The notes under the pieces were generated by a model. The model was not told the origin of the DNA and made no database searches. It worked only from the letters and a program-made list of their open reading frames with translations. DNA of 64,000 nt from Nitrospirales bacterium (GTDB lineage Bacteria > Nitrospirota > Nitrospiria > Nitrospirales > UBA8639): positions 310,001-374,000 of the forward strand of contig JAJDBP010000002.1 of NCBI GenBank assembly GCA_029261295.1, given 5' to 3'. The position numbers were made by a program, and so were the translations under genes. Within the stretch, counting starts at the first letter, position 1. Each line of letters begins with the position of its first letter. Of the stretch, positions 10,422-18,296 are shown in pieces.

Positions 10422-10497
10422 GAGCCGCTAGCTCAGTTGGTAGAGCATCGCCCTTTTAAGGCGAGGGTCGTGCGTTCGAGCCGCACGCGGCTCACCA
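10422..10497 (+). tRNA. tRNA-Lys (TTT), integration target
   Basis: Acceptor GAGCCGC/GCGGCTC, D-arm GCTC/GAGC, anticodon stem with loop CTTTTAA (anticodon TTT), T-arm GTGCG/CGCAC, discriminator A and encoded CCA. The 3' part from 10450 is repeated exactly at 18160-18210, so this tRNA is the attachment target of the element that follows and its 3' half is now supplied by that element. Confidence 0.97.
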
Positions 10498-11594
10498 GAA
10501 GAATCAATGGGTTGCGACTCTTCTGGTTCCTCCTCACTTCCCCCAGTCACGGTTTTAGTCACGGTTCCATCTGGAATTTTCCCCGCAAAGGTCGTCAGTC
10601 CTTCTACCGCACTCCATAAATGAGTCGGGCTGAGATGGGCATAGCGCGACAACATGGCCGGACTCTTCCATCCCCCTAAAGCCATCAGTGTTCGATCATT
10701 TGCGCCTTGCATGGCCAGCCGACTGGCGAAGGTATGTCTGAGGTCATGAAACCGAAATGGAGCCAATTTAGAGGCATTCACTGCCTTATCAAATGCCCGT
10801 CGGAGATAGCGCACGTCCAGTGGAAAAATTCGGTCCTGAGGGCCAACCTCGGACGATTTCTGGATATTGCTCAGGAGATCTTGGACGGTCGAATTCATAG
10901 GAACTCTCCGAGAATCCCCAGCCTTGGTTTCGCGAAGGGCCAAGATCCCTGTATCCCAATCTACATCAGACCATTTCAATCGTAACAATTCACCTTGTCG
11001 GCATCCCGTGTTTACAGCTGCCACGACGATGGACCGATATTTTTCTGGAAGCTTTTCAAATAAGGTCGCTTCTTGTCCAGCTGTGAGGTATCGGACTAAT
11101 ACATTATTGACCTTAGGCGGCTTTACTCGGCTTGCTGGATTTTCTTTTAGCATTCCCAACCGGCGAGCATCATTCAGTGCGGCTTTCAGGACCCCAAAAA
11201 ATCGTAGGACTGTCCCTGGCTGATAGCCTTCCTCTGCCAATGCGGATAAGACCTTCTCGATATGCCGGGGCCCCATCTTGTTGATATCCAGATCCCCCAA
11301 TTCGGCAATCCAGCGGTCGATTCGTGACTTGTCATCGCCTTTCCGTTTCCGGCGAGCGTCAATCCGAGCAATATAATCATTTGCGACATCCCGAAAGAGA
11401 ATTGTTTTCGGCTTCTCGAAATGCTTCCCTGAAAGCTGTTCGCTTTTCAGTCTGCCATAAAGAGCCTTTGCCTCACTCTTCGTCGAACAGCGAATCCGTC
11501 TTTCTCTGCCATTTACCCATATTCTCGTAGACCACCGTCCACTCTTGGGCGGCCATTCCAAAACCCCACGGTCTCTCCCACCTTTTCTAGCCAT
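10428..11594 (-). CDS. Tyrosine recombinase / phage-type integrase
   Basis: A 388-residue site-specific recombinase that should integrate and excise the element at tRNA-Lys. Catalytic residues: Arg in NTGCRQGELL, Lys region ETKAGDSRRVPM, HDLRHTFASRL, GGWKS, and Tyr in MLSRYAHLS. The N-terminal part is a SAM-like core-binding domain. The start at 11594 (MARKGG) has GGGGG upstream; an in-frame start at 11690 would overlap the neighbour by 86 bp. The last 23 or so codons are read from the attachment repeat and tRNA-Lys on the opposite strand, so the C-terminal tail depends on whether the element is integrated. Confidence 0.92.
   Translation of the reverse strand: MARKGGRDRGVLEWPPKSGRWSTRIWVNGRERRIRCSTKSEAKALYGRLKSEQLSGKHFEKPKTILFRDVANDYIARIDARRKRKGDDKSRIDRWIAELGDLDINKMGPRHIEKVLSALAEEGYQPGTVLRFFGVLKAALNDARRLGMLKENPASRVKPPKVNNVLVRYLTAGQEATLFEKLPEKYRSIVVAAVNTGCRQGELLRLKWSDVDWDTGILALRETKAGDSRRVPMNSTVQDLLSNIQKSSEVGPQDRIFPLDVRYLRRAFDKAVNASKLAPFRFHDLRHTFASRLAMQGANDRTLMALGGWKSPAMLSRYAHLSPTHLWSAVEGLTTFAGKIPDGTVTKTVTGGSEEEPEESQPIDSSGEPRAARTHDPRLKRAMLYQLS
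10450..10500 (+). other. Left attachment site (inside tRNA-Lys)
   Basis: First copy of the 51-bp direct repeat. Identity with the right copy starts at base 10450 and stops after 10500; the bases on either side differ. The intact tRNA is at this end, beside the integrase. Confidence 0.93.
10546..10567 (+). other. Probable integrase arm-type site, left
   Basis: Tandem GTCACGGTT motifs 15 bp apart (begins GTCACGGTTTTAGTCACGG), within the integrase coding region and 45 bp inside the left attachment site. The same 22 bases with one mismatch, same orientation, occur at 17999-18020. Confidence 0.55.
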
Positions 11595-11604
11595 ATCGTG
11601 CCCC

Positions 11605-12504
11605 CTATTTATTAGTTTTCCCTTTTCGGGATTTACTCTTGTCAGTTGCTTTTTTCCCTTTGCGTTGAGCTGCCCTCCATTGACGAACATTTGCCTGGTT
11701 TTGGCAACGGGGCGAGCAATAGATTCCCCGGTGATGCCGAGCTAAAAAGATTCGACTACATTTTGAATTGGGGCACACTTGAATCCCACTCCCTTCCTCT
11801 AAGTCCAGCATCACCATGAGATACATGAGGCCCAATAAAGAAGGCGAATCCCACCACATTATCCAATCTCTGTTTGGAACGTTTTTGTTTAGGGTGTTTT
11901 GGATCAGGCGGAACCGAAATCCATAAAACTTAATGCCAAGTATTTTTTCCAAGGTACGGCTGGCGTGGAGCCTGACGGAGGGGTCTGGATTAACCTCAGC
12001 AGCTTGGGCAAGAGCAATAGTGGCACGTAATTCCTCTTGCGCTTCATGAAACTGGGAAAGCTTCATTGTCGTGTAGTGCTTCCAAACATAGCCGTAGGGG
12101 GGAGGTTGGTCGGCTTTCTGTACCTGAAAGATGGCGTTGATGTCTTTCCCCGTCCAGGTGTGGCTAGGTTTCTCCTTCGGAACGGAGGATTTGAGAATGC
12201 GTAGGTCAAAACCATCAAGTCGGGATGGATCGATGTTCCCTGTGAAGTTCAGCGGACCGGGAAGTCCAAATTCTTGGCAAAAGCGAAGAACTTCTTTTGG
12301 CCGCTGAGGATGAACATCGAGGAAGAGATAGGGGAGGGACTTCCCTCCTTTCGGTGGGTTCTGTTCCCTTGGCCAGTAGTGGTCAAACGGATCATAAGAA
12401 AGAGGACTTTCGACGATGATCTTGTCCTTAACCAATTGAGCTTTTCTTGGTTGGCCCCATTGAGACTCATACGTTTTTAAGGGGAGGTTACTTCTAGGCT
12501 TCAT
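11605..12504 (-). CDS. Zinc-finger protein of the element (CGNR-like C-terminus)
   Basis: A 299-residue protein of unknown function. The C-terminal 70 residues hold CPNSKCSR, YCSPRCQNQANVRQWR and a lysine-rich tail, a four-cysteine finger resembling the CGNR/FLYWCH-like fingers in bacterial regulators. The N-terminal 220 residues show no motif I recognise. It lies 10 bp upstream of the integrase on the same strand and so is probably co-expressed with it. It is transcribed divergently from the HTH gene at 12624, with a tandem 10-bp repeat between them. A regulatory or nucleic-acid-binding role for integration is plausible only by position. Confidence 0.6.
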   Translation of the reverse strand: MKPRSNLPLKTYESQWGQPRKAQLVKDKIIVESPLSYDPFDHYWPREQNPPKGGKSLPYLFLDVHPQRPKEVLRFCQEFGLPGPLNFTGNIDPSRLDGFDLRILKSSVPKEKPSHTWTGKDINAIFQVQKADQPPPYGYVWKHYTTMKLSQFHEAQEELRATIALAQAAEVNPDPSVRLHASRTLEKILGIKFYGFRFRLIQNTLNKNVPNRDWIMWWDSPSLLGLMYLMVMLDLEEGSGIQVCPNSKCSRIFLARHHRGIYCSPRCQNQANVRQWRAAQRKGKKATDKSKSRKGKTNK

Positions 12505-12623: not shown

Positions 12624-12836
12624 ATGGAATTGAACAAACCTCAATTGGGACGGTTGATGACGTGTGAGGAAGTGGCGGATGCCTTGGGGCTTCGCGTTTC
12701 AACAATTAGGAGAATGATTCTGGAGCGCCGAATCGACACGGTACGACCGTCGCGCCGAAGTGTGCGGATTCCCGAAATCGCCGTTCAACATATTCTTCGT
12801 GCAGGCTATCGCCCAGCAATTCAGGAAGGAGCATAA
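12624..12836 (+). CDS. Excisionase-family helix-turn-helix protein
   Basis: A 70-residue protein with a MerR/excisionase-like winged helix: LMTCEEVADALGLRVSTIRRMILERRIDTVRPSRRSVRIPE. Such proteins bind DNA to direct excision or to repress the element's own promoters. A GGAGGAAGAAG Shine-Dalgarno precedes the ATG. It opens a rightward operon; the next gene begins 6 bp later. The choice between excisionase and repressor cannot be made from sequence. Confidence 0.8.
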   Translation: MELNKPQLGRLMTCEEVADALGLRVSTIRRMILERRIDTVRPSRRSVRIPEIAVQHILRAGYRPAIQEGA

Positions 12837-12842
12837 GGGCCT

Positions 12843-13310
12843 ATGCTCTTGGACCAAATCTTAGACCTAATTGGATCGGTACGGAAGAGTGGCCAGGGAT
12901 GGATGGCGAAATGTCCAGCCCATGAAGATCGAAGCCCTTCCCTCTCAATCAGAGAGGCAGAAGATCGAGTCCTTCTCCATTGCTTTTCGGGGTGTAGCGT
13001 TGCCGCGATCTGTGGGGCGTTAGGTATCGGCATTCGAGACTTATTCGCTGAGAATCTGTCACCCGTTCAATGGACCCAACTCCAACAAGCACGACGAGAA
13101 CGAAAACAGGCTGACCACAAGAAAAAGATACAGGAAAGTCGGGTTATTGACGCACGAAGAGAAGCCGAGGCTCTACTCCGAGCAAGTCAAGGCCAAGATA
13201 TTTCACAATGGAGCGAGGAAAAATTTGATCGAGTGATGAAGGCCGTAGGGCGCGCCTACGACTTATTGCGAGAGGAAAATGAGGATACTTTCTATGGACA
13301 CCTTGGATGA
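12843..13310 (+). CDS. Primase-type zinc-finger protein
   Basis: A 155-residue protein with a CHC2-like zinc-binding fold of DnaG/phage primases: Cys24 and His27 (CPAHEDRSPSLSI), then Cys47 and Cys51 (LLHCFSGC). The rest is a charged helical tail (QLQQARRERKQADHKKKIQ). The catalytic Toprim part is absent, so it probably recognises template for a partner. The next gene, encoding a DUF3987-type protein, overlaps its end by 17 bp, which suggests the two polypeptides work together in element replication. Confidence 0.8.
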   Translation: MLLDQILDLIGSVRKSGQGWMAKCPAHEDRSPSLSIREAEDRVLLHCFSGCSVAAICGALGIGIRDLFAENLSPVQWTQLQQARRERKQADHKKKIQESRVIDARREAEALLRASQGQDISQWSEEKFDRVMKAVGRAYDLLREENEDTFYGHLG

Positions 13311-14664
13311 GCAACTAAGCGTCTTTGAGGCAACGACACAAGAAATTGGTATGCCAATTCTGGAGGATGAGGCAACCAATTTTGAGTGTGACGGTATTCC
13401 TATCAATGCTCCGGCTGACAAACAATGGCCCGATCCAATCAATGAAGCGGCCTATTATGGATTGGCTGGAGAATTTGTGCGTCTGGTAGAGCCGGAATCA
13501 GAAGCCGACCCTGTGGCCATTCTTTTGCAATTTCTCACGGCCTTCGGGTCGGTGGTTGGTCGAGGACCGCATTTTGTCGCGGAAGGGACACGACACTATA
13601 CGAATCTCTTTATGGTCCTCGTGGGACAAACCTCCAAGGCCAGGAAGGGGAGTAGCTGGTCACATGTGTGGAATATTTTTAACGGCTGCGATGAAGTGTG
13701 GGCGACGAATCGGGTGAAGGGAGGCCTTTCTTCAGGAGAGGGTCTCATCTGGAATGTTCGAGATCCCATCTATAAACAAGAACCGATTAAAGATAAGGGA
13801 TTGCACACCGGAGAATACCAAGAAATCTGTGTGGATCCCGGTGTTGAGGATAAACGACTATTGGCCCAAGAAGCGGAATTTGCGGCACTCTTACATATGC
13901 CGGATCGGTCAGGAAACACCTTGTCACCCATTATTCGCAAAGCGTGGGAATCAGGAAATTTAGAGTCCCTCACCAAAAATTCCCCAGCCAAAGCCACCAA
14001 TGCGCATATCAGCATTGTGGGCCATATCGTGAAGGACGAAGTTCGGCGATATCTGAGCCGCACAGAAGCGGGGAATGGCTTCGGGAATCGGTTCTTGTGG
14101 GTGTGTGCTACGCGATCCAAGTTTCTTCCCGAAGGCGGACGGACCGACCAACTGAATTTTGCTCCATTAATCCATAGGCTGAAGGTGGCTATTGAGACCG
14201 CTCGCGCCACGGGTGAATTACGCCGCGATGAAGGCGCTAGGGAGATATGGCGGACCGTCTATCCCAAATTATCCGAAGGGGTTCCAGGAATGTTAGGCGC
14301 AGTCACGTCACGTGCCGAGGCCCAGGTAATGCGGTTGGCTTGTCTCTATGCCTTATTAGATGGGGCCACAGAAATTAAAGCACTGCACCTGCGTGCAGCA
14401 TTGGCAGTTTGGGAATATTGTAAAGCGAGTGCTCGGTTTATCTTTGGCGATACACTTGGCGATCCGATAGGCGATGACATTCTGACAGCGCTCCGGAATA
14501 ATTTAGATGGGCTAACACGGACTGAGATTAGTCAGCTCTTGCATGGCAACCGTAACCGGCAGCAAATTGGACGGGCATTGGGGGTGTTATTGGAATATGG
14601 GCTAGCGCGAATGATTTCTGAAGAAACAGGAGGCCGAAAGGCTGAGCGGTGGTTCGTGACCTAG
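13294..14664 (+). CDS. DUF3987-type replication protein
   Basis: A 456-residue P-loop protein of the type found beside primase fingers in phages and satellites. The block VGRGPHFVAEGTRHYTNLF leads into an atypical Walker A, GQTSKARKGSS. Then come SSGEGLIWNVRDP, an acidic EAEFAALL segment, and NGFGNRFLWVCA. The C-terminal part looks like a winged helix (GLTRTEISQLLHGNRNRQQIGRAL). The ATG at 13294 has GAGG nine bases upstream; an in-frame ATG at 13279 is possible. A role as helicase or primase-helicase partner for element replication is inferred. Confidence 0.78.
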   Translation: MDTLDEQLSVFEATTQEIGMPILEDEATNFECDGIPINAPADKQWPDPINEAAYYGLAGEFVRLVEPESEADPVAILLQFLTAFGSVVGRGPHFVAEGTRHYTNLFMVLVGQTSKARKGSSWSHVWNIFNGCDEVWATNRVKGGLSSGEGLIWNVRDPIYKQEPIKDKGLHTGEYQEICVDPGVEDKRLLAQEAEFAALLHMPDRSGNTLSPIIRKAWESGNLESLTKNSPAKATNAHISIVGHIVKDEVRRYLSRTEAGNGFGNRFLWVCATRSKFLPEGGRTDQLNFAPLIHRLKVAIETARATGELRRDEGAREIWRTVYPKLSEGVPGMLGAVTSRAEAQVMRLACLYALLDGATEIKALHLRAALAVWEYCKASARFIFGDTLGDPIGDDILTALRNNLDGLTRTEISQLLHGNRNRQQIGRALGVLLEYGLARMISEETGGRKAERWFVT

Positions 14665-14673
14665 CTATGAGGA

Positions 14674-14745
14674 ACGAAATAGACGAATTAAACGAAAAAA
14701 GGGTAGTTGGGGATAGACTTATTTCGTTACTTTCGTTTCTTTCGT
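14674..14745. repeat. Inverted 9-bp-periodic ACGAA / TTCGT array
   Basis: ACGAA begins at 14674, 14683 and 14692 (exactly 9 bp apart). TTTCGT begins at 14722, 14731 and 14740 (again 9 bp apart). The two halves form an imperfect inverted repeat in which only the ACGAA cores match. The last TTTCGT abuts the AGGAGG Shine-Dalgarno of the gene at 14755. A further ACGAA pair with the same 9-bp step starts at 14984 and 14993. Confidence 0.75.
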
Positions 14746-14754
14746 AGGAGGAAC

Positions 14755-14991
14755 ATGGGTAAATATCTCGATATGGCAGATGCCGTGATGGGCTTAAAGG
14801 CGAAGAACCAAGGGAGATTAGTGGAATTTGATTCTCCATTGTTTGGTCGCTGTTATGGACGGATTCGAGAGGTCAAAGCCAATCTCTACAAAATTACCAA
14901 TCATTCCGTCCTTCAAGATGAAGCGGTGATCCCTGGAGCGTGGCTTGTCAGAGTTATGGACGATGACCTAAGAGCCCACAATTACGAATGA
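14755..14991 (+). CDS. Small unknown protein of the element
   Basis: A 78-residue protein I do not recognise. It is mixed alpha/beta in composition, with a hydrophobic centre (SPLFGRCYGRIREVKANLYKI) and an acidic end (VMDDDLRAHN), and has no membrane segment. The start at 14755 is fixed by AGGAGG seven bases upstream. The inverted ACGAA/TTCGT array precedes it, and two more ACGAA units lie at its stop codon. Its 3' end overlaps by 38 bp with the convergent HEPN-like gene. Confidence 0.6.
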   Translation: MGKYLDMADAVMGLKAKNQGRLVEFDSPLFGRCYGRIREVKANLYKITNHSVLQDEAVIPGAWLVRVMDDDLRAHNYE

Positions 14992-16237
14992 GACGAAGAA
15001 AGTCAGTAACCTTCTTGGTCAAACGAGTGCATATGTTCCTTCCCTCAACATTTTTGTAGAGCGGTTTTCCATTCATGATACAGGATTGAATGAGTTCGGA
15101 AATTAGATTATGTGTTTCATTGATAACTTCATAGGAACTCTTTTGGTGGATCTTGGGTTCTACCTTTCCAGTGTGAACAGCTTGACTACGTAGTTCATAA
15201 AAATTCGTAATTAAACTCACTACCCTTTTTTTCTTCCGGCCCCTGATGTCCAAAATTGCAGGAATTCGCTGCCGTAAGGTTTTAGCAATTCCATCTTCGG
15301 GTGGTTGGTTCCGATCAATGACCAATGCCTCTAAAGCTATTCCTGAGTCTATTGCACTATCTCGAAGAAAGCTTTGCCCCTTCGATGAGTTCAATCGTTC
15401 TACGGGGACCTCAATAGCTGCTTGTTCTTCTTTGGACAATTTCAAAAGGGAATTGAATAGCTTTTCCCATTCATTGAGCTTTTTTGTATCCCAGGGTGAT
15501 GGGGGAGCCACTTGAAGTTTATTGCTGAAAATCCATGGCTGTGGGGACGGATCCCCATTCAGCGGAACCCAATCAGGAAATTCTTTCCAAGAATACCAAA
15601 ACCTGATTCCATGTTGGCCTAAGACGCCAAGAAGTTGGGCCAGAATACGTAAATCTTTTGTGGAGTCGGACATATTGGGTACTGGTAGGTTTGAAGAAAA
15701 AATGGCGTGTCTAGGAACCATCACTTCCCTCATTATGGCCGCTGAAGGTCCATGGATCCCAGGGAGAAGGTTCTGGTCAATTTGCGTTTTGTGATGTGAA
15801 GTAGAAAGAATTTCGGAGTCCCAGGGAATGAGAGAGAGTTCAGGAGTAATAGTGAATTGTTCCGGAACTTGAATTCCGTCAATCGAAAAAAATTGGTGAA
15901 AAGGAATTTTAGGAGAGCTGAAAAACTTCTCTATATTTTGAACTGCCTCCTTTGGTCCGTGCTGGCTACCTCTGCGGATGAGCCAATGGGCAAGAAAGTC
16001 ATAGGTTAAATATTGAGCTCCCCCTGATGGCCAAACTTGGTATTGGTTATGAAAAAATTTTAATTCGGGAATTCCTTTAAAAAGGTCTAAGAATTCTATT
16101 AAACAGGTCGGAGCCTTTTCCGGTACTTTGTCCGCTAAGGGCAGAAGGAAATGGATAGGCATCTTATTCTCCTGTTCCAAATCTTCAATCCGGGTTAAAA
16201 GGATTTCAAGCTTTGGAATCAGAGCTTGCAAGTTCAT
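14954..16237 (-). CDS. Large protein with C-terminal HEPN-like domain
   Basis: A 427-residue protein without membrane segments. The C-terminal region has the layout of an Apea-like HEPN domain: IALEALVIDRNQ, KTLRQRIPAIL, then YELRSQAVHTG, giving the R-x4-H motif (about Arg350 and His355) of HEPN ribonucleases. The N-terminal 230 residues carry no recognised motif. HEPN proteins in mobile elements are often RNA-targeting defence or toxin proteins, so this may be element cargo. The ATG at 16237 is chosen over an in-frame TTG two codons upstream; neither has a clear Shine-Dalgarno. Function is inferred from one short motif and the helix pattern. Confidence 0.6.
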   Translation of the reverse strand: MNLQALIPKLEILLTRIEDLEQENKMPIHFLLPLADKVPEKAPTCLIEFLDLFKGIPELKFFHNQYQVWPSGGAQYLTYDFLAHWLIRRGSQHGPKEAVQNIEKFFSSPKIPFHQFFSIDGIQVPEQFTITPELSLIPWDSEILSTSHHKTQIDQNLLPGIHGPSAAIMREVMVPRHAIFSSNLPVPNMSDSTKDLRILAQLLGVLGQHGIRFWYSWKEFPDWVPLNGDPSPQPWIFSNKLQVAPPSPWDTKKLNEWEKLFNSLLKLSKEEQAAIEVPVERLNSSKGQSFLRDSAIDSGIALEALVIDRNQPPEDGIAKTLRQRIPAILDIRGRKKKRVVSLITNFYELRSQAVHTGKVEPKIHQKSSYEVINETHNLISELIQSCIMNGKPLYKNVEGRNICTRLTKKVTDFLRLIRNCGLLGHRP

Positions 16238-18159: not shown

Positions 18160-18210
18160 GCCCTTTTAAGGCGAGGGTCGTGCGTTCGAGCCGCACGCGG
18201 CTCACCAGAA
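18160..18210 (+). other. Right attachment site (orphan tRNA-Lys 3' half)
   Basis: Second copy of the 51-bp direct repeat. It contains the anticodon-loop-to-CCA half of tRNA-Lys without the 5' half, so it is the displaced original 3' end of the chromosomal gene. Confidence 0.93.
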
Positions 18211-18296
18211 AAAATCCTCTTTTAGAGGAAATAAAAATGGGGTCAGACTCGATTTTATGGTCGATAGCGGCAAATGAAAAATTCGTATGGAGGCTC

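Follow-up and report, generated by a model that had tools for sequence, protein, structure and literature searches.

A 9-bp-phased inverted array behind a DUF3987 helicase gene is a probable iteron origin, putatively read by a winged helix in which one residue covaries with the first base of the unit

The 64-kb stretch of DNA analyzed here (the window) carries a 7.8-kb integrated element at tRNA-Lys, bounded by a pair of 54-bp repeats that are 98% identical. The first attachment-site repeat (10450..10503, + strand) lies within the 3' end of the tRNA (10422-10497), and the second (18160..18213, + strand) forms the right end of the element. Pfam and PHROG profile matches identified a tyrosine integrase (10428..11690, - strand) and an HTH_17/excisionase-like protein (12624..12836, + strand), while Pfam assigned a CGNR zinc-finger protein (11605..12504, - strand), which is probably cargo or a regulator. 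The element further encodes a CHC2 zinc-finger primase-type protein (12843..13310, + strand; Pfam 6e-7, PHROG DNA primase 5.6e-12) and a DUF3987 helicase (13279..14664, + strand; Pfam DUF3987 4e-9), the proposed initiator and putative binder of the repeat array that lies behind it. A small gene of 78 aa (14755..14991, + strand) comes after the array, and three more ORFs follow inside the element. No terS, packaging or interference genes were recognised among the element's proteins using Pfam and PHROGs. AlphaFold2 modelled the small protein, at low confidence, as a small beta-barrel with an N-terminal helix; an Sm/Hfq-like assignment of this fold was tried and not used, the matches being weak (E 0.005 or worse; pTM 0.56). 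Genes after arrays, in the window (14755-14770) and in L028, L029, L042, L045, L049 and L053, often begin M-x-YL-(D/E)-x-x-x-R and differ in the remainder.

The array consists of two facing arms, each with an exact step of 9 bp. The left arm (14674..14700, + strand) holds three 9-bp units, ACGAAATAG, ACGAATTAA and ACGAAAAAA, with ACGAA cores at 14674, 14683 and 14692, and is kept in L010/L031, L028 and L029. The right arm (14719..14745, - strand) holds three inverted units, likewise kept in sisters and reading ACGAAAGAA, ACGAAAGTA and ACGAAATAA on the - strand; TTTCGT at 14722, 14731 and 14740 corresponds to ACGAA on the - strand at 14723-14727, 14732-14736 and 14741-14745. The last inverted unit directly adjoins AGGAGG (14746-14751), as the first-pass annotation had noted, and the ATG of the small gene lies at 14755. 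Two further ACGAA cores at 14984 and 14993, behind the small gene, belong to an extra two-unit arm (14984..15001, + strand; ACGAATGAG and ACGAAGAAA) that spans the stop codon of that gene. The extra arm matches the 9-bp unit consensus, RCGNNWWAR, and is missing from the 79%-identical sister (L010/L031); extra arms are present in other elements (L076, L084, L128). Thus, where the first-pass annotation had proposed checking sister elements for the same phase, the 3+3 array was kept in L010/L031 and the pair at the gene end was not. The gap between the arms (14701..14718; GGGTAGTTGGGGATAGAC) is G-rich and not AT-rich. Mean AT content was 65% in the units, which are AT-rich, and 37% in the gap, against a mean of 0.44 for the locus, and the gap exceeded its locus in only 8/33 cases.

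The core positions, the 9-bp step and the pair at the gene end, all described from the sequence beforehand, proved correct and lie far above chance expectation: the 64-kb window holds five copies of ACGAA-N4-ACGAA, 5/5 at the array, the expected number for the window being 0.13, and five copies were reached in 0/100 shuffles of the window. Genome-wide, there are 16 copies of the pair pattern and a single facing double array, the one at the window locus. A coding repeat, for which 9 bp would represent three codons, was rejected, as the frames differ between the window and the sister and stop codons lie inside.

We then asked to which gene the array belongs. The closest homologue of the small gene (79%; L010) sits behind the same 3+3 array. 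More distant homologues, L011 and L012, have no array, while the array follows the helicase: genome G282 contains two elements (L028 and L029, the latter with the same left-hand gene order as the window element) with helicases 43-45% identical to that of the window, genome G084 contains one at 37% identity, and in all three the array stands directly after the helicase gene and before a gene that differs from the window's small gene. The array is therefore the helicase's and not part of the small gene. The first-pass annotation had placed it around the leader of the small gene; the position was right, but the array starts where the helicase gene ends, and the small gene is incidental. It had also held that cores lacking beside the same small gene would count against the array; such cases exist in L011 and L012, and they show only that the array is not linked to that gene.

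A helicase search of 84,980 genomes yielded 35 loci and 4 viral contigs. The 35 loci carry labels of about ten or more phyla, many of them from metagenome bins whose labels may be wrong. The window and most relatives have a 9-bp-phased array at the stop codon of the helicase gene; these arrays are mostly 3+3 inverted, with arms mostly of three units. Inverted 9-phased 5-mers were detected in 28/40 post-helicase regions (a count that includes L056, a chance pair whose true array is degenerate), with at least five units in 22/40, compared with 21/2000 shuffles and none of the control regions. Periods of 6, 7, 8, 10, 11, 12, 15 and 21 were each seen in 0-4/40 regions. Lag 9 was the only periodic peak, with 16/40 regions and no controls reaching 17/22 matches. 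Cores vary among elements (ACGAA, GCGAA, ACGAC, ACGGA, GCGCG, ACGCG, GCGCC, ACGKG and others, with a GGGG type in L044), and where an element has both arms the core agrees from arm to arm. Arrays also occur elsewhere, inside coding sequence or, >1 kb upstream, close to where the helicase gene starts; the arm order is swapped in L046, L076, L112 and L113, and there are single-arm arrays. Roughly 40/124 relatives, mostly distant, showed no clear array in the DNA examined. Among 72,556 plasmid records there was no plasmid with the module and one distant match (28%), and six helicase matches, at 25-28%, came from Streptomyces and Thermobifida phages.

The helicase matched PF13148 with 36.6 bits, above the gathering cut-off of 27. 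Its AlphaFold2 model, built with 56 relatives, reached a pLDDT of 88 and a pTM of 0.84, and the predicted core resembles that of MCM helicases, with a Foldseek E-value of 3e-8 and a superposition over 274 residues at Z 18.8 and rmsd 4.0. The enzyme is thus predicted to be an AAA+ helicase of MCM-like fold that carries a winged helix at its C-terminus. The winged helix-turn-helix was delimited from the AlphaFold2 secondary structure to residues 396-461 (14464..14661, + strand), where weak profile matches to winged-helix proteins fall at the same positions. Among relatives, the accompanying primase can differ, with a prim-pol fused to the helicase in L040 and a Toprim primase in L034.

Alignment of the helicase C-termini revealed Asn where the core begins with A and His where it begins with G, at the position of Asn424 (codon AAC, 14548..14550, + strand), just before the predicted recognition helix (427-439). 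In 71 curated loci the agreement was complete (Asn-A 37/37, His-G 34/34), and the mutual information between position 424 and base 1 of the unit was 1.00 bit (z 70.7), the next best of 385 columns having a z of 10.9. The rule was first noticed on the initial 40 loci and then held in later Nitrospirota and IMG/VR loci. Because the units of the 71-locus table were curated by hand, which could bias the covariation count, calling was repeated automatically, ignoring the residue and treating all first bases alike. This gave 28 Asn-A and 19 His-G calls (Fisher p 1.7e-12) and eight others, of which four (L049, L066, L068, L152) come from units that obey the rule but were read on the reverse strand, two (L114, L166) have Arg with G, and two (L120, whose units cannot be framed, and L146) are ambiguous. 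On a helicase tree built without the winged helix, the residue and the base each required 21 changes, and independent pairs on well-supported branches agreed in 8/8 cases (p 0.0078). L082, for example, has a helicase 68% identical to that of L028 (Asn, ACGAA), yet carries His and GCGAA. Arrays off the usual place also fit, including L137 (Asn, ACGAA, ~1.7 kb upstream), L062 (His, GCGAA) and L135/L140/L141 (His, GCGCG, arrays ~1.25 kb upstream). One exception, L126, has Asn and ACGAA arms with one extra GCGAA arm. Base 4 of the unit was associated with columns 423, 415 and, fourth by z, 418, all in the same helix-turn-helix. The residue–base covariation supports recognition of the iterons through the C-terminal domain of the helicase, which at the level of sequence appears to be the reading domain. 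Separately, Arg or Lys takes the place of Asn424 in L114, L129, L166 and L133, whose units start with G, possibly a third class of the rule.

Computation directly showed the array with its step of 9 bp, its association with the helicase and the covariation of residue and base. We consider it highly probable that the array serves as an iteron-type origin of replication and that the helicase encoded by the element binds it through the winged helix; an origin is the natural reading because the element combines a hexameric MCM-like enzyme that would read sequence with its tail, an adjacent primase, an integrase and sites for that tail. Physical binding, the number of rings, melting and replication we infer, as follows. 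Each 9-bp unit would be bound by the winged helix at the C-terminus of the MCM-like helicase, and the two inverted three-unit arms would load the ring-shaped enzyme, probably one ring per arm or else one ring, with its six tails, on all six sites, an idea suggested by the arrangement of six sites in two inverted trios. The helicase would then melt the DNA, possibly beginning within the units, since these are AT-rich and the gap is not, after which the CHC2 or prim-pol primase would start synthesis and the excised element would be copied from the array. More broadly, we think it likely that a family of mobile-element replicators in many bacterial phyla shares 9-bp-phased 3+3 inverted origins, with specificity set largely by one winged-helix residue (Asn with A, His with G at base 1) and base 4 tuned by neighbouring residues.

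The first-pass annotation had offered an iteron-like origin, an operator or a translational switch; the origin and its recognition by a protein are strongly supported by helicase linkage and covariation, and the other two options fared poorly. As an operator, the array would let the helicase or another element protein regulate the small gene or the replication operon, with replication starting elsewhere. Initiators often autoregulate, which favours such a role, as does the fact that many elements have the array between the helicase and the gene that follows. However, the genes behind the array differ between elements, arrays also lie within coding sequence, with swapped arms or >1 kb upstream near the helicase start, and the covariation tracks the helicase's own winged helix as the ligand. 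We therefore regard an operator as unlikely, for the small gene in particular. A phased mRNA hairpin acting as a translational switch for the small gene or as a transcription terminator is less probable still. The window array folds at -22.5 kcal/mol (z -3.7 versus shuffles) and touches the ribosome-binding site, but any inverted protein sites would fold likewise. In 28 arrays of 3+3, spacers matched their hairpin partner at 2.51 of 4 positions versus 2.54 for other units, and on this comparison the hairpin was rejected; nor would pairing account for swapped-arm and single-arm arrays or give a perfect match between a protein residue and a base. Because spacers do not pair preferentially with their partners and arms can be swapped, single or within coding sequence, the data fit arrays that behave as independent DNA sites.

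That the array is a dispersed REP-like palindrome, akin to the CACGAAGNN palindromes of other Nitrospirota genomes and located here by chance, is scarcely credible: several genomes of the phylum do bear many 9-bp-phased palindromes beside housekeeping genes, but the double array occurs only once in the window's genome, its sequence changes along with the helicase in related elements, and G196, G062 and G238 are not among the matches listed in the phylum-wide helicase search. The dispersed palindromes themselves, found in G196, G062, G238, G095, G126, G110 and G071 (L018-L025, L036-L039), have another 9-bp-phased unit, CACGAAGNN or CACGAATNN; they give up to 23 pattern matches per genome (0 in the reversed control) and are intergenic, near housekeeping genes. 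A kinship with the array was not supported, given this location and the absence of G196, G062 and G238 from the helicase matches listed.

Several known replicons resemble the origin proposed here. The origins of SaPIs and PICIs comprise two sets of short repeats that lie immediately 3' of the gene for the initiator helicase and are read by the C-terminal domain of that protein (PMC7581432, PMC6092414). The window element shares the two repeat sets directly 3' of the helicase gene, the gene order (int, HTH/xis, primase, helicase, ori) and, judging from covariation alone, the reading of repeats by the initiator's C-terminal domain; like PICIs, it has an integrase and an HTH/xis-type gene by a primase-helicase module and a specific attachment site. 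In contrast, its initiator is of the DUF3987 type where SaPIs use DUF927 or D5 types, its units keep a strict 9-bp step in 3+3 inverted arms, and its G-rich gap departs from the AT-rich gap of SaPI/PICI origins. SCCmec Cch2 similarly belongs to a primase-helicase operon, and the C-terminal domain of the helicase binds repeats just downstream (PMC7581432), a layout that the window element appears to share, although Cch2 has three direct AAGTG iterons in 23 bp and a D5-type helicase and resides in staphylococcal cassettes. In the Sulfolobus plasmid pRN1 the origin lies just downstream of the gene for a primase-helicase whose C-terminus forms a winged helix (PMC4234260), as proposed here, but it is a roughly 100-nt stem-loop without iterons and the helicase belongs to SF3. 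The consulted portion of Kazlauskas et al. (2018; PMC5862659) presents DUF3987, the Pfam family of the window helicase, as a predicted replicative helicase of mobile elements found beside primases, and that portion describes no DUF3987 origin or DNA-recognition rule. Our literature search found no report of a DUF3987 origin or of such a residue–base covariation.

DUF3987 helicases hence gain a candidate origin, a candidate binding domain and a simple putative recognition rule. How origin specificity evolves has usually been inferred from few plasmids and now becomes directly testable, because 21 Asn/His switches on the helicase tree pair with 21 A/G switches in the DNA. If the rule is true, origin compatibility groups would be predictable from protein sequence and compatibility could be altered by one change in the protein matched by one in the DNA. 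The two G282 elements, L028 and L029, share the ACGAA core within one genome, and the helicase of either element might therefore also serve the origin of the other. We also observed an orphan array of ACGAA and TTCGT cores (L030:6643-6694) that has the AAGGG gap as well and lies next to a HigA-like gene; no DUF3987 helicase was detected up to 5 kb away, and the array is perhaps a relic origin.
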